Positions 13,047 through 18,973 of a DNA stretch of 36,616 bases are shown in pieces; the stretch's first letter is position 1, and the number at the start of each line of letters is the position of its first letter. Location of the stretch: assembly GCA_913054335.1 (NCBI GenBank), contig CAJXHL010000008.1, forward strand, positions 1 to 36,616, read 5' to 3'. The stretch is from an uncultured Gammaproteobacteria bacterium. GTDB taxonomy: Bacteria > Pseudomonadota > Gammaproteobacteria > PS1 > Pseudothioglobaceae. Position numbers and translations under genes: made by a program. The notes beneath the pieces were generated by a model that was not told the origin of the DNA, ran no database searches, and was given only the letters and a program-made list of their open reading frames with translations.

Positions 13047-14390
13047 CTATTTAGTCAGTAAATAGGCCTCCAGTGAATCATCAAGCGCATCAAGCCACGG
13101 CGTATGGTGCGCCGGTGATTGGGTGCCAGTCATCAAAGAAGCATAGGATTTATTTCTAAACGTCATGATGTCTTCTTTCTTGTCTTTTTTCCAGCTCAAG
13201 AATGTCTGTCTCATACCTTCGATGTCAAAATTCGGGTAATCCGTTTCATCAATCAACATCTGTATGTAATCACCTTGGAATTTAATCGCATAGCCAGCAT
13301 CATCTTCAGCCACTTCAAGCTCGTGCTGCTCTTTAGTATGTCTCTGCATTTCATCAAAAGATGGTAATTCGATTTTGCCCAATATAACGTCTCTGGCATA
13401 CCAAGCTTGCGCATCAAACATATTGAAGGTATACCACTGATCCTGCATTGCAAGATACATTAGTTGTGGATTATGCTCCCAAACGACCCCTTTGTAGATG
13501 TCTAGCGGATACAAAATATTGTTGGTTTTTAAGCGTAGTGAGTCGGGCAAGAATGGGAAGTGATGCTTGTACCCCGTACAAAGAATAATCGCATCAACCT
13601 CTTTGGTGCTGCCGTCGATAAAATGCACTGTGTTGCCTTCTACTTTTACAATGCCTGGCTTTTCTTCCCAGTTATCTGGCCACTTAAAGCCCATGGGAGC
13701 AGAGCGGTAACTACTGGTAATCGATTTAGCGCCATACTTATAACATTGAGACCCAATATCCTCAGCAGAATAACTACTGCCAACAATTAACAAATCTTGG
13801 CCTTTAAATTCAAGCGCATCGCGGAAGTCATGTGCATGCAAAATTCTACCATTAAAGTGACTAAAGCCCTCATATTCAGGAACATTCGGTGTTGTGAAAT
13901 GACCCGATGCCACAATAACATAGTCAAATTCATCCGAATAAGCCCTATCTTCAGTGAGGTCGTGCACACGAACTGTGAATTTCTTAGTGTCTTCGCAAAA
14001 CGAAACATCTCGAACAGCTGTGTTAAATTTGATCTGATCTCGGACATTTGCTTTTTCAACCCGACCTTGAATGTAATCAAACAAAACTTCTCTAGGAGGA
14101 TAAGAGGCAATAGGATGATCAAAATGCTCTTCGAAATAATAATCCGCAAACTCTAAACATTCTTTTGGCCCGTTGGACCATAAATAGCGATACATGCTGC
14201 TATGAGCAATTTCACCATTCTGATCTAGGCCAGTACGCCAGCTATAATTCCATAAACCACCCCAGTTAGATTGTTTTTCAAAACAAACAACTTCAGGTAC
14301 ATCTTCGCCTTTATCTTTAGCTGATTTAAACGCTCTTAATTGCGCGAGGCCACTTGGCCCTGCACCGATGATCGCTACCTTCTTATCCAT
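13047..14390 (-). CDS. tmm: Trimethylamine monooxygenase (bacterial FMO)
   Basis: A flavin-containing monooxygenase that oxidises trimethylamine to trimethylamine N-oxide with NADPH and O2. The 447-residue protein follows the characterised Methylocella-type Tmm closely by eye: FAD site '[14 protein letters not shown]' at residue 8, '[14 protein letters not shown]', '[13 protein letters not shown]', the FMO signature FxGxxxHxxxF ('[11 protein letters not shown]'), the NADPH site '[14 protein letters not shown]', '[14 protein letters not shown]' and the C-terminal '[17 protein letters not shown]'. The agreement in length and local motifs makes Tmm more likely than a general FMO. A palindromic site lies about 80 bases upstream. 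Its position beside an ammonium module suggests use of methylated amines as nitrogen or energy source; Tdm and the downstream demethylation genes are not in the window. Confidence 0.9.
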
Positions 14391-14559: not shown

Positions 14560-15147
14560 TTATTCTAAGAGCTCGAAAGCGCTGATTATGCTATCTGCAA
14601 TATCGGCGATACGTTTATTTTTATCCATTGCCATTTTTCTGAGAGACTGATATGCCTCGTCTTCGTTGATTTTCTTATGTTTCATCAGCAAGCCTTTGGC
14701 TTTTTCAACTGCTTTGCGCTCAGCTAACTGCGAGCGTGTGGCATCCAATTCATCCTTTAATGCCTGAAACTCTCTAAAGCGAGCAATGGCAACGTCGATA
14801 ATAGGCTGTACACGATTTTCCTCTAAGCCATCGACAATATAGGCATTTACACCTGATTTAATCGCGGCGCCTGCCATTTTATCGCCAGAGCTCTCTGTAA
14901 ACATAACAATCGGTTTGGGCTTTGTCTTATTAACATCGCGGAGATTAGCAAAGACTGCCTCATCCGGTATATCAGCATTTATAATCACTACATCTGCATG
15001 AGTTATTTCATAACTACTTGCAAGGTTTTCGCTATTCTCCAGTCGACAGATCACCTCATGACCCTTGTCTTGCAATGCACGACGAAGAATGGCTGAACGG
15101 CCCATATTCTCGTCAACTAAAATAATTTTTAATGCTTCTGGATTCAT
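14560..15147 (-). CDS. NasT-like ANTAR-domain RNA-binding regulator
   Basis: The 195-residue protein has an N-terminal receiver-like domain (about 1-125), a coiled-coil linker and a C-terminal ANTAR domain ('ERKAVEKAKGLLMKHKK', then 'DEAYQSLRKMAMDKNKRIAD'). ANTAR proteins bind paired hexaloop RNA hairpins and prevent intrinsic termination. The overall pattern ('PIVMFTES', 'GVNAYIVDGL', 'VQPIIDVAIARF') is that of NasT, the nitrate/nitrogen antiterminator. The acidic pocket residue Asp12 is present, but the phospho-acceptor position is Asn57 (four before Pro61), so control by phosphorylation is unlikely. No NasS partner is adjacent. The gene lies downstream of amtB behind a terminator; its likely target is the PII-amtB leader. 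Confidence 0.85.
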   Translation of the reverse strand: MNPEALKIILVDENMGRSAILRRALQDKGHEVICRLENSENLASSYEITHADVVIINADIPDEAVFANLRDVNKTKPKPIVMFTESSGDKMAGAAIKSGVNAYIVDGLEENRVQPIIDVAIARFREFQALKDELDATRSQLAERKAVEKAKGLLMKHKKINEDEAYQSLRKMAMDKNKRIADIADSIISAFELLE

Positions 15148-15238: not shown

Positions 15239-15265
15239 AAAAATGGGGGTATTTCACCCCCATTT
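15239..15265 (-). terminator. Intrinsic terminator after amtB
   Basis: On the minus strand AAATGGGGGT, a five-base loop and ACCCCCATTT are followed by a T-run, 17 bases after the amtB stop. It separates amtB from the ANTAR gene, which must then have its own promoter or depend on read-through. Confidence 0.85.
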
Positions 15266-15281
15266 GACAGGCTGACTTTGA

Positions 15282-16499
15282 TTATTTTGTTACAAACTCT
15301 GGATAGGCTTCTAAACCACACTCAGTAAGGTCAACACCGTCTTCTTCCTCTTCTTCAGAGACTCGAATACCCATAGCTGCTTTGAGGCCTAGCCATAGTA
15401 ATAATGAAGTACCAAATACCCATACAAAGATGGTGCCTGCGCCAACCAACTGACCAACAAAAGAGGCACTGCTATTAGTTAAAGGTACTGCCAATAGTCC
15501 CCACAATCCAACCACACCATGAACTGAAATTGCGCCCACTGGGTCATCTATTCTTAGCTTTCGATCTAAGATAACAATTGAGAATACAACAATCAGCCCA
15601 CCAACGGCACCTATAAGTGTTGCCACTAAAGCACTAGGTGTATCAGGACCTGCAGTAATTGCAACCAATCCTGCTAAGGCACCATTAAGTGCCATTGTTA
15701 GATCCGCTTTACCAAACCAAGCTTTCGCCAACAACAGTGCTGCAATGACACCACCTGCTGCTGCTGCATTAGTATTTAAAAATACCATTGCTACTGCATC
15801 GGCACTTTCTTTGCTAGCCATTGCTAGTACTGAGCCGCCATTAAAGCCGAACCATCCCATCCAAAGAATAAACGTACCTAAGGTTGCCAAAGGTAGGTTT
15901 GCGCCAAGCATCGGCTTGGAGTTACCATCTTTGTCATACTTGCCTTTGCGTGGACCGAGTATAAGAACGCCTGCAAGTGCTGCAGCAGCTCCTGCCATAT
16001 GAACGATACCTGAACCCGCAAAATCTAAAAACCCAAAGTCATCACCCAAGCTATATATACCAAAAACGCTTGCACCACCCCAGGTCCATAAACCTTCCAT
16101 TGGATAAATAATGGTAGTAAAAATTGCAGCAAAAACGAAAAACGAAAACAACTTCATACGTTCCGCTACCGCTCCAGAGACAATCGACATTGCGGTTGCC
16201 ACAAACACTACCTGGAAGTAAAAGTCAGCTGCATTTGAATAAGTTTCGCCCTCGCCACTAATACCGTCTAGCAATAATCCACCTCCGTACATTAAATCGT
16301 ATCCATAGACCATATACATCGTACAAGCGATTGCAAATAAGCCAATATTTTTAGTTAAAATTTCAGCTGTATTCTTGCTTCGAACAAGCCCAGCTTCTAA
16401 CATAGAGAAACCTGCCGCCATCCACATCACCAAAGCACCCATCACTAAAAAGTAAAAAGTGTCAAGGGCATACTGTAATTCTAATATTTGATTTTCCAT
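15282..16499 (-). CDS. amtB: Ammonium transporter AmtB
   Basis: The 405-residue protein has about eleven transmembrane helices. The two pore histidines are present: His167 in 'DFAGSGIVHMAG' (the family signature) and His326 in 'SVHGVVGLWG', along with the 'MLEAGLVRSKN' segment. The cytoplasmic tail ('GIRVSEEEEEDGVDL...GLEAYPEF', shortened) resembles the PII-binding tail of Amt proteins. No signal peptide is apparent. It follows the PII gene by nine bases with an AAGGAG ribosome binding site, the classic glnK-amtB pair, so PII probably gates the channel. Transcription of both is likely controlled by the leader described at 16877-16948. Confidence 0.95.
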   Translation of the reverse strand: MENQILELQYALDTFYFLVMGALVMWMAAGFSMLEAGLVRSKNTAEILTKNIGLFAIACTMYMVYGYDLMYGGGLLLDGISGEGETYSNAADFYFQVVFVATAMSIVSGAVAERMKLFSFFVFAAIFTTIIYPMEGLWTWGGASVFGIYSLGDDFGFLDFAGSGIVHMAGAAAALAGVLILGPRKGKYDKDGNSKPMLGANLPLATLGTFILWMGWFGFNGGSVLAMASKESADAVAMVFLNTNAAAAGGVIAALLLAKAWFGKADLTMALNGALAGLVAITAGPDTPSALVATLIGAVGGLIVVFSIVILDRKLRIDDPVGAISVHGVVGLWGLLAVPLTNSSASFVGQLVGAGTIFVWVFGTSLLLWLGLKAAMGIRVSEEEEEDGVDLTECGLEAYPEFVTK

Positions 16500-16508
16500 A
16501 ATTACTCC

Positions 16509-16853
16509 TTAAACTGCTTCAGGGCCAGTTTCACCCGTACGAATACGGGTCACTTGCTCTAAACTTGAAACAAAAATCTTACCATCACCGATTGCACCGC
16601 CATTGACTTTGCAGCACGCAATAATCGTCTCAATGACTCGCTCAACTTGCTCGTCTGTAATGGCAATTTCCAATTTTACTTTTGGTAAAAACTCAACGAC
16701 AAACTCGGCGCCGCGATAAAGCTCTGTATGGCCTTTTTGACGACCAAATCCTTTGACTTCAGTCGCAGTGATGCCTGTGACACCAATTTCAGAAAGCCCT
16801 TCTCTGACGCTGTCCAGCCTTTTTGGCTGGATAATTACTGTTACCATTTTCAT
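16509..16853 (-). CDS. glnK: PII nitrogen regulatory protein lacking Tyr51
   Basis: A 114-residue PII signal protein that binds ATP/ADP and 2-oxoglutarate and controls AmtB. The T-loop 'GFGRQKGHTELYRGAEF' and the C-terminal 'GAIGDGKIFV' and 'RIRTGETGPEA' are all present and align without gaps to E. coli GlnB/GlnK up to the T-loop. The position equivalent to Tyr51, the uridylylation target of GlnD, is Phe (codon TTT at 16701-16703). GlnK is preferred to GlnB because of linkage to amtB. The ATG at 16853 has AGGAG six bases upstream; a second ATG two codons later is possible but less well placed. Confidence 0.94.
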   Translation of the reverse strand: MKMVTVIIQPKRLDSVREGLSEIGVTGITATEVKGFGRQKGHTELYRGAEFVVEFLPKVKLEIAITDEQVERVIETIIACCKVNGGAIGDGKIFVSSLEQVTRIRTGETGPEAV

Positions 16854-16876: not shown

Positions 16877-16931
16877 AAAAAAAAGCCTGGTATCCACAAC
16901 ACGCAGTGGGACAACAGGCTTCAATACCAGG
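16877..16931 (-). terminator. Leader (attenuator) terminator upstream of the PII gene
   Basis: In transcript orientation CCTGGTAT pairs with ATACCAGG, followed by C and eight T residues, about 20 bases before the PII start. An alternative AGCCTG/CAGGCT pairing uses the same 3' arm. There is no upstream gene on this strand close enough to need it (ligA lies upstream, but its frame ends more than 130 bases earlier and a better promoter match lies between), so it looks like a conditional terminator controlling entry into glnK-amtB. Confidence 0.8.
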
Positions 16932-16948
16932 GATTCTCTACTTTGAGA
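16915..16948 (-). promoter_or_regulatory. Candidate ANTAR target: two AnnGnn hexaloop hairpins
   Basis: In transcript orientation, hairpin 1 is TCTC-AAAGTA-GAGA (16935-16948) and hairpin 2 is CTGGT-ATTGAA-GCCTG (16915-16930, with one mismatch and one G-U pair). Both loops have six bases with A at position 1 and G at position 4, the published ANTAR signature. Hairpin 2 shares its 5' arm with the terminator, so the two structures exclude each other. The stems are short, so this needs folding or probing, but the layout and the adjacent ANTAR gene agree. Confidence 0.6.
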
Positions 16949-16967
16949 TAGACGAAAAAAAACGCCT

Positions 16968-16994
16968 ATTTTAGCTTAAAAAAATTAAACTCAA
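16968..16994 (-). promoter_or_regulatory. Possible sigma-70 promoter of glnK-amtB
   Basis: TTGAGT (16989-16994) and TAAAAT (16968-16973) are 15 bases apart, slightly short of the optimum. Transcription from here would start close to 16960, just before hairpin 1 of the leader. Confidence 0.4.
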
Positions 16995-17065
16995 ATAAAC
17001 GCCATCGTTAAAAACAGCAACCTTCGTCGGCCACCATTAATGGTAATTGTACAGATTTATTCACA

Positions 17066-18973
17066 TCATAGTGAATTATTTTCAATTATTGACAAATAAT
17101 CTGATTCCTTTAAGATAACAACGTTCTTTTCCTTGGCTGTATTGAGCTTTGTAATGCTTACATTCTCACCAATAATCAGAAAATCAGTTTTACTGTTCAC
17201 ACTTGTTGCCACTTTAATGCCAAGAGACTTGCCTTGCTTCTGTAAATCAGCACGAGGATGACTCATCTTGCCAGTAAAAACAATCTGTTTGTTAAAAAAC
17301 GGATGATCAAAATTGGCAGAGTTACTTATTAATTGAGTTGACTCCAGTGCAAATCCGAATGCTTTCAAGACTCGGAATTCTTCTTTAATCTCTTCTAAGC
17401 CCTCAATAATAAGCTTGGCTGTTATCTCAGCAAATCCATCCATATTGACAACATCATCAACAGATAAGTCAAAGATTTCACCCAAAGGCTTATGTTTCAA
17501 CAGATTTTCACAGTTACCCATACCCAACCTTAATACACCAAAGGCGGCTAAAAAACGCCAATCCTCAATACTTTCTTGCGTCGATCTAGCCAGTTGATTC
17601 AGCAGGTTTTTTGCCGTTTTATCGCCAAAACTCATGGCCGTTAAATCGCTGTGAGACAGTTGATAAATGTCACTTACTTTGCGAATGTTATTTTCATAAA
17701 GCTTTTGTATGCTTGCCAAACCAAAGCCATCATTATTGGCTAATATTTTAAAGAAATACGCCATGCAACCAATAATTTGATCGGGACAATCATCATGATT
17801 AAGGCACATTAAAAAATCGGATTCCCATGTTAACTCACTCTGGCAACTTGGGCATGATTCAGGAATCGATACCTCTACACTCTTTAAGACTTTATTAATC
17901 TTTGGTATCACTAAGCCACTACGAGTCAATTCAACAATACTACCCTCGCCTAAGCCTTGTTCTTTAACCAGTCCATAATGATGGCCAGTAGCACGATAAA
18001 TGGTTGCGCCACTGAGTTGGGTTGGCTCTAATTCAGCCACAGGAGTGATTTTTCCTGTTCTGCCTACTTGGGCAGTTACCGACAATACACGTACTTGCGC
18101 CTTATCTTTATTCTCTTTAAAGGCGATCTGCCAACGATGGAATTTTCTATTCGAGCCCATATGAGATTTCAGTTGGACGTTGGTCAGCTCAAAAACAACC
18201 CCATCCACATCAAAATCTACACCACTTTCAAGCTCACTCACAATGCTCTGGAAATGCGCACTAAATGATTCAATATCGCCAGACCAGCTGGGTAGCTGAG
18301 AAAAGGGTACAAAAAGAGCGGCCTTATCGGCGATAGCCTGAGAAGCATATTGGTCAAGCGCTTTTTCTTTTATCAGGCTTGCCTGAAAATTTCTTGGGTA
18401 TTCAAAATGCTCGCTTAGGTGCGACTCAAAATAGCTCTTTTTAACAACAATTTCACCAGGGCCCTGTCCTCTTGCTGAATCATTGTAAACACTCAGTCCT
18501 CGTTCAAACACTCGAGAAATATCACTACCCTTATTACCATCACCCCTTGTATATAAGCGATTGCCATCATCATAACCAGCAAAGCCATCAAGCTTAGCAG
18601 TACCCTTAATTCGGATACCTTCAGACGGAAGATTAATCTCTAGAGAGGCCTTATTTACCCTATCCAGCCATTTTTGAATTTCACCCCAAGTATAAGCCTT
18701 ATCGATAGAAATCATTCTTTCCGGAAGCTTTACTTTTTCTTCGGAAAAGCCTTCATTTTCAGGCTCGGGGCGGTTGAATAAAAAGTGATCAGGCGTCCTT
18801 TTTAATAACTCAGCCAAGAAAACAAAATCGTAGTCTTGATCGCTTACTATAGGCCTACCATCGCGATAGTACTGGTTGGCAACAATGCAGAACTCAGCCA
18901 ATTCATCGTCTGATAAATCGCCCAGTAAAAGGCTTTGGTTTGCTATATTTTGAATTTTTTGATCAGTCAACAT
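17066..18973 (-). CDS. ligA: Divergent NAD+-dependent DNA ligase
   Basis: The 635-residue protein has the LigA domain order: Ia-like N-terminus with 'IVSDQDYD', the adenylation domain with nucleophile Lys127 in 'AKLDG' and 'YTRGDGNKGSD', an OB fold with 'QVGRTGKITPVAELEP', a four-Cys zinc site (CPSC...CLNHDDCP), helix-hairpin-helix repeats and a C-terminal BRCT domain ('IVFTGKMSHPRADLQ'). Several residues normally fixed in LigA differ: the Glu two before the nucleophile is Thr, the Ia His is Tyr, and the 'KFP' motif reads KEN. It may be an accessory ligase beside a standard LigA elsewhere, or a fast-evolving sole copy. It lies downstream of bamC on the same strand. Confidence 0.82.
   Translation of the reverse strand: MLTDQKIQNIANQSLLLGDLSDDELAEFCIVANQYYRDGRPIVSDQDYDFVFLAELLKRTPDHFLFNRPEPENEGFSEEKVKLPERMISIDKAYTWGEIQKWLDRVNKASLEINLPSEGIRIKGTAKLDGFAGYDDGNRLYTRGDGNKGSDISRVFERGLSVYNDSARGQGPGEIVVKKSYFESHLSEHFEYPRNFQASLIKEKALDQYASQAIADKAALFVPFSQLPSWSGDIESFSAHFQSIVSELESGVDFDVDGVVFELTNVQLKSHMGSNRKFHRWQIAFKENKDKAQVRVLSVTAQVGRTGKITPVAELEPTQLSGATIYRATGHHYGLVKEQGLGEGSIVELTRSGLVIPKINKVLKSVEVSIPESCPSCQSELTWESDFLMCLNHDDCPDQIIGCMAYFFKILANNDGFGLASIQKLYENNIRKVSDIYQLSHSDLTAMSFGDKTAKNLLNQLARSTQESIEDWRFLAAFGVLRLGMGNCENLLKHKPLGEIFDLSVDDVVNMDGFAEITAKLIIEGLEEIKEEFRVLKAFGFALESTQLISNSANFDHPFFNKQIVFTGKMSHPRADLQKQGKSLGIKVATSVNSKTDFLIIGENVSITKLNTAKEKNVVILKESDYLSIIENNSL

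Follow-up and report, generated by a model that had tools for sequence, protein, structure and literature searches.

How do marine bacteria that seem to lack the usual nitrogen regulators control their ammonium uptake? In enteric bacteria the glnK-amtB operon is under NtrB-NtrC/sigma-54 control. The locus studied here lies in a stretch of 36,616 nucleotides (the window) from the 1.7 Mb genome of an uncultured gammaproteobacterium, whose family, here called Thioglobaceae, includes Thioglobus, SUP05, Pseudothioglobus, Ruthia, Vesicomyosocius and the Bathymodiolus symbionts. RpoN was not found in the window genome nor in 12 of the 16 relatives tested, and neither the window genome nor any of these relatives has an NtrC that scored over the cut-off; therefore, these genomes largely lack the classical means of controlling glnK-amtB. 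The analysis presented below makes us quite confident that the leader of glnK-amtB attenuates transcription in two steps, under the control of a NasT-like ANTAR protein that is encoded just downstream.

Layout of the locus and of the glnK-amtB leader

The genes are arranged on the minus strand in the order ligA, glnK, amtB, a gene for a receiver and ANTAR protein, and a trimethylamine monooxygenase gene. The 3' end of ligA is at 17066, and this gene shares its strand with glnK (16509-16853; Pfam PF00543, 8e-30), which is the first gene after the attenuator and is followed by an ammonium transporter gene of the marine subtype, amtB (15282-16499; TIGR03644, 9e-186). A strong hairpin with a U-run lies 3' of amtB (15239-15265, minus strand; AAATGGGGGTGAAATACCCCCATTTTT) and is probably the operon terminator, so that the ANTAR gene (14560-15147, minus strand; PF00072 and PF03861, the latter at 6e-19) is probably transcribed separately, from its own promoter. 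This gene, placed downstream of amtB already by a sequence-only reading of the locus, encodes the pair of domains typical of NasT, a receiver-like domain (here a pseudo-receiver) and an ANTAR domain. Directly 3' of it, the trimethylamine monooxygenase gene (13047-14390) occupies the same position in the two closest relatives (L032 and L033) and in no other examined locus. In some genera (L062, L069 and L063) a protein of the PF09694 (Gcw_chp) type, with a signal-peptide-like start, is encoded between amtB and the ANTAR gene; the Pfam assignment was run on the L062 copy only.

The leader itself (minus strand, 17038-16854) contains two consecutive ANTAR-type units, each composed of two hairpins and a terminator. 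In unit 1, the P1' hairpin (17013-17038) has the form AATGGTGGCC-GACGAA-GGTTGCTGTT, with 10 pairs including G-U and its loop at 17028-17023, and it is followed by P2' (16998-17009; AAC-GATGGC-GTT), the 3' arm of which is the beginning of terminator 1 (T1, 16955-17001; stem CGTTTATTT...AAATAGGCG, -12.3 kcal/mol, then U8). Unit 2 consists of P1 (16935-16948; TCTC-AAAGTA-GAGA), P2 (16917-16928; GGT-ATTGAA-GCC) and terminator 2 (T2, 16877-16922; GAAGCCTG...CAGGCTTT, stem -18.7 kcal/mol, then a U-run), all on the minus strand. T2 ends about 23 nt upstream of the glnK ATG (16853), with a ribosome-binding site in between. Both P2 hairpins are mutually exclusive with their terminators, as P2' (17009-16998) overlaps T1 (17001-16955) and P2 (16928-16917) overlaps T2 (16922-16877). 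As P2 alone folds at -2.1 kcal/mol, T2 would win over it when no protein is bound. An alternative helix of the window, CCTGGTAT with ATACCAGG, was discounted, as it was not seen in the relatives.

The sequence-only reading had proposed a single ANTAR-controlled attenuator before glnK-amtB, and its elements were recovered in unit 2: the terminator just before the P-II start, the first hairpin exactly as described, two loops that fit the AnnGnn signature, and a second hairpin whose 3' arm is the 5' arm of the terminator. Two points had to be revised. The second hairpin had been drawn as CTGGT-ATTGAA-GCCTG, of which the core holds while the outer U-U is unpaired, leaving a stem of 3 bp, and the attenuator is preceded by another complete unit, made up of P1', P2' and T1 (17038-16955).

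Upstream of both units lies a putative sigma-70-type promoter (17046-17075, minus strand; -35 TTCACT at 17075-17070, -10 TACAAT at 17051-17046), with the predicted transcription start near 17039-17038. A simple sigma-70 scan of the window promoter gave a score not above that of shuffles; the case for the -10 box rests on its constant position in the relatives, where a -10-like box is found 39-43 nt 5' of the P2' loop in most leaders; from this position, transcription should begin right at P1'.

All four loops of the window leader have G at position 4 (G4). Both unit 2 loops also have A at position 1 (A1), while both unit 1 loops have G there. The short stems had been named as the weak point of the sequence-only reading, and rightly so: two AnnGnn hairpins are found in the window leader against a shuffle mean of 0.85, and at least two appear in 21% of shuffles. 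Because this chance test is not significant, the hairpins of the single sequence were not used as proof, and it is the conservation in relatives, rather than the window sequence alone, that makes the case for ANTAR hairpins.

Conservation and covariation in relatives

For this comparison, 43 distinct glnK leaders from Thioglobaceae relatives were used. The hexaloop G4 is near-invariant despite the divergence of the surrounding sequence. In P2', which in the relatives has the form AAC-ANNGNC-GTT, G4 is present in 42 of 42 leaders and A1 in 40 of 42, the two exceptions with G1 being the window genome and its close relative. In P2, A1 is found in 41 of 43 leaders and G4 in 40 of 43. The three P2 loops without G4 are those of L054 and of two Vesicomyosocius leaders (L112 and L114), which come from clam symbionts that have lost amtB and show a decayed P2 loop in unit 2. 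The P1' loop has A2 and G4 invariant over 40 leaders, and reads AAAGNY in most relatives outside the genus of the window, where it is GACGAA; thus, position 1 of the unit 1 loops is A in most relatives and G in the window. According to Ramesh (2012, PMC3369931), changes at position 1 of the loop reduce EutV binding. In the EutV structure of 2022, G4 makes the only base-specific contact and A1 is uncontacted (PMC8934654), and the conservation of G4 over A1 described here, including the G1 of the window unit 1, fits this structure.

The stems also covary. P1' is 90% paired over 40 distinct sequences, with 48 double-change cells against 19.3 in shuffles and a covariation of 0.612 against 0.221, all slid controls being lower. 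T2 is 100% paired in 37 leaders, with 25 double-change cells against 5.7 and a covariation of 0.423 against 0.189 in shuffles. T1 is 99.3% paired in 34 leaders, with double changes in the upper stem and moderate covariation. In P2, with stems of 3-4 bp, and in P2', the inner three positions are well paired and show few double changes. As for P1 of unit 2, a hairpin with an AnnGnn hexaloop is found in 14 of 14 leaders examined from the genus of the window; outside this genus the hexaloop appears in some leaders only, and a pentaloop fold is better in many genera. The sequence-only reading had proposed to look in related leaders for the loops, the terminator and stem covariation; G4, mostly A1 and the terminator are kept across the family, and covariation is present, which supports the interpretation as an ANTAR attenuator at the sequence level.

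The ANTAR protein and its targets

NasT-type proteins antiterminate nitrate and nitrite assimilation operons, and nirA-type genes are known targets. The NasT-like gene of the window is the sole ANTAR gene found in its genome, and 47 of the 49 good genomes available for the family carry a homologue. The RNA-contact residues of EutV are Arg142, Lys143, Lys149, Glu160, Tyr164, Arg168 and Met172 (PMC8934654). The window protein is identical to EutV at the main contact residues listed there, and the corresponding R144, K145, K151, E162, Y166, R170 and M174 are conserved in essentially all of 60 homologues. In these same 60 homologues the position of the phospho-acceptor Asp is, without exception, Asn (Asn57). 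A NasS-type, NrtA-like protein (PF13379) was found in none of 16 genomes, the window genome among them; the control matched in 12 of 14.

Covariance models built from the glnK leaders (R1 from unit 1, R2 from unit 2) were used to search 23 genomes from the family; matches at the training glnK leaders are expected by construction, and matches elsewhere are not. Outside the training set, R1 and R2 detected a tandem element with the four-hairpin layout before nirB (nitrite reductase large subunit) in several genera, and in L200, a member of the genus of the window, the element stands before an operon of a nitrate transporter and nirB. Furthermore, R1 found just one ANTAR unit, complete with terminator, before serC-serA, which encode phosphoserine aminotransferase and phosphoglycerate dehydrogenase, in the genus of the window (L194:3071-3150, and among L214-L224). 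This unit is present at 9 of the 11 closest serC loci; at the other two (L219 and L223) the -10 box is directly followed by a short leader, and no ANTAR match was obtained from their genomes either, both of which are incomplete. Evidently, as judged from these leaders, the same ANTAR protein also serves nirB and serC-serA in the relatives. In the window genome the glnK leader is the only site of the element found. A search for SerC found none there and NirB had no match over the cut-off, so that a second target could not be shown in this genome; two pattern matches elsewhere in it had no motif layout and were treated as chance. Among 369 Gammaproteobacteria sampled, R2 at E 0.01 had no match outside Thioglobaceae (about 365 genomes).

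Protein and RNA co-occur across 83 genomes (Fisher p 2e-5, a value inflated by missing sequence, as completeness confounds the comparison). G001, which is 98% complete and has no ANTAR gene, gave no R1 or R2 match. In G059, a 99%-complete, fragmented assembly, strong RNA matches were found at two loci and the ANTAR gene was not found, probably because of an assembly gap.

Ammonium uptake as a target of the attenuator, suggested by the sequence-only reading, is supported by these data. The further idea of a self-contained Amt/P-II switch does not hold in the sense of a closed ANTAR/Amt pair, given the nirB and serC-serA leaders of the relatives and three genomes (G006, G008 and G024) in which glnK-amtB has moved away from the ANTAR gene and retains the whole leader. 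G006 also contains an ANTAR leader of the glnK type (L195, G006:C14:25932-25775) behind which only a piece of glnK, broken off after 11 codons, is left, apparently a fossil from the relocation of glnK-amtB. In several clam symbionts (L112 and L114 of Vesicomyosocius, L066 and L067) amtB is lost or broken, and glnK and the ANTAR gene remain.

Mechanism, alternatives and relation to known systems

The mechanism that we propose would begin with transcription from an ordinary sigma-70-type promoter. When no active ANTAR protein is available, the polymerase would meet T1 and then T2, and glnK would rarely be reached. Active ANTAR protein would bind P1' and then P2', and later P1 and P2, and each bound P2 would withhold the 5' arm of its terminator, allowing read-through of T1 and T2 and the expression of glnK-amtB. 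Ammonium uptake is thus probably switched on by the passage of the polymerase through two terminators, as far as can be judged from the sequence. The input would be the nitrogen or metabolic status, sensed without NasS, and a leader with two successive terminators would be expected to leak less and to respond more sharply.

Some of the observations count against this mechanism, namely the P2 stems of 3-4 bp with little covariation of their own, the P1 of unit 2 that is often better as a pentaloop outside the genus of the window, the G1 in both unit 1 loops of the window, and the regulator receiver without a phospho-acceptor. One alternative takes the hairpins for ordinary terminators that serve ligA, the gene upstream, with hexaloops that arose by chance. 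The end of ligA at 17066 on the same strand and the chance test described above would agree with this, but a conserved -10 box, at a constant distance from P2', separates ligA from the first hairpin, the leader stays with relocated glnK-amtB and also precedes nirB and serC, and a near-invariant G4 amid diverging sequence is not what chance loops would give; we consider this explanation extremely unlikely. It is also very unlikely that the leader is an attenuator of another class (a riboswitch, a leader peptide or the target of another protein) with incidental AnnGnn loops. Both terminators do fold well on their own and the link between leader and ANTAR protein is drawn from sequence, yet Rfam gave no relevant match for the leader at the gathering threshold or even at E 10, four hairpins with a P2 overlapping each terminator are the ANTAR layout of PMC3369931, and the element precedes nirB, which belongs to the classical target class of NasT.

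Finally, a former ANTAR leader could have become a relic, or be constitutively read through, in the window genome after its nitrate-assimilation targets had gone. The failure to find NasS, or NirB over the cut-off, and the G that replaces A as the first base in both loops of unit 1 point in this direction. However, the window has kept both terminators and G4 in each of the four loops, and the ANTAR domain is still conserved, whereas the leaders that resemble true relics (L112, L114 and L195) are decayed, which makes this reading highly improbable.

ANTAR RNAs before P-II and ammonium-transporter genes have been reported in other bacteria, and several attenuators per transcription unit have also been described (Ramesh 2012, PMC3369931). 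As in the EutV-eut system of Enterococcus faecalis (PMC3369931, PMC8934654), there are two short hexaloop hairpins with a conserved G4 and a P2 that overlaps an intrinsic terminator, but here two complete units stand in series in one glnK-amtB leader throughout a family of marine sulfur oxidisers, and EutV has a phospho-acceptor (Asp54) that this regulator lacks. The NasS-NasT systems of Paracoccus (PMC3795266) and Bradyrhizobium (PMC6759348) share with it a receiver-like and ANTAR regulator and, in relatives of the window genome, the presence of the element at nirB and nitrate-transporter operons; they differ in the NasS partner, not found here in the genomes tested, and in that glnK-amtB is here a target throughout the family and, in the window genome, the sole target found. 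In Bradyrhizobium, nasT mutants showed lowered glnK2 (mildly) or glnB (PMC6759348). With NtrB-NtrC/sigma-54 of enteric bacteria only the target operon is shared, as the promoter here is sigma-70-like and control is apparently exerted at termination. No literature joining ANTAR domains with Thioglobus was found. As far as our tools show, and within the scope of our searches, three features appear to be new: the tandem leader conserved in Thioglobaceae, serC-serA as a target, and a NasT that has neither NasS nor a phospho-acceptor and is mostly without sigma-54.

Thioglobaceae (SUP05/Thioglobus and the symbionts of mussels and clams) occur widely in the sea, and the elements described here would provide a concrete and testable switch for the control of ammonium uptake without NtrC and sigma-54, with a defined RNA, a protein and a list of targets. 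We tentatively put forward, as a rather doubtful possibility, that a NasT freed from NasS and from the phospho-acceptor became a general antiterminator for nitrogen and amino-group genes (glnK-amtB, nirB and serC-serA), replacing the role of NtrC in a lineage largely devoid of sigma-54. This raises the question of what NasT senses without NasS and with a receiver that is not phosphorylatable in the usual way. A CBS-domain (nucleotide-sensing) protein, or another new partner, may supply its input. A gene for a protein of about 148 amino acids with two CBS domains, a candidate sensory partner judged by its position, was not seen at the ANTAR locus in the genus of the window; in many relatives (L112:5555-5983, L065:6880-7323 and similar loci) its 3' end lies a short distance 5' of the ANTAR gene, and it is kept beside this gene even where amtB has been lost.
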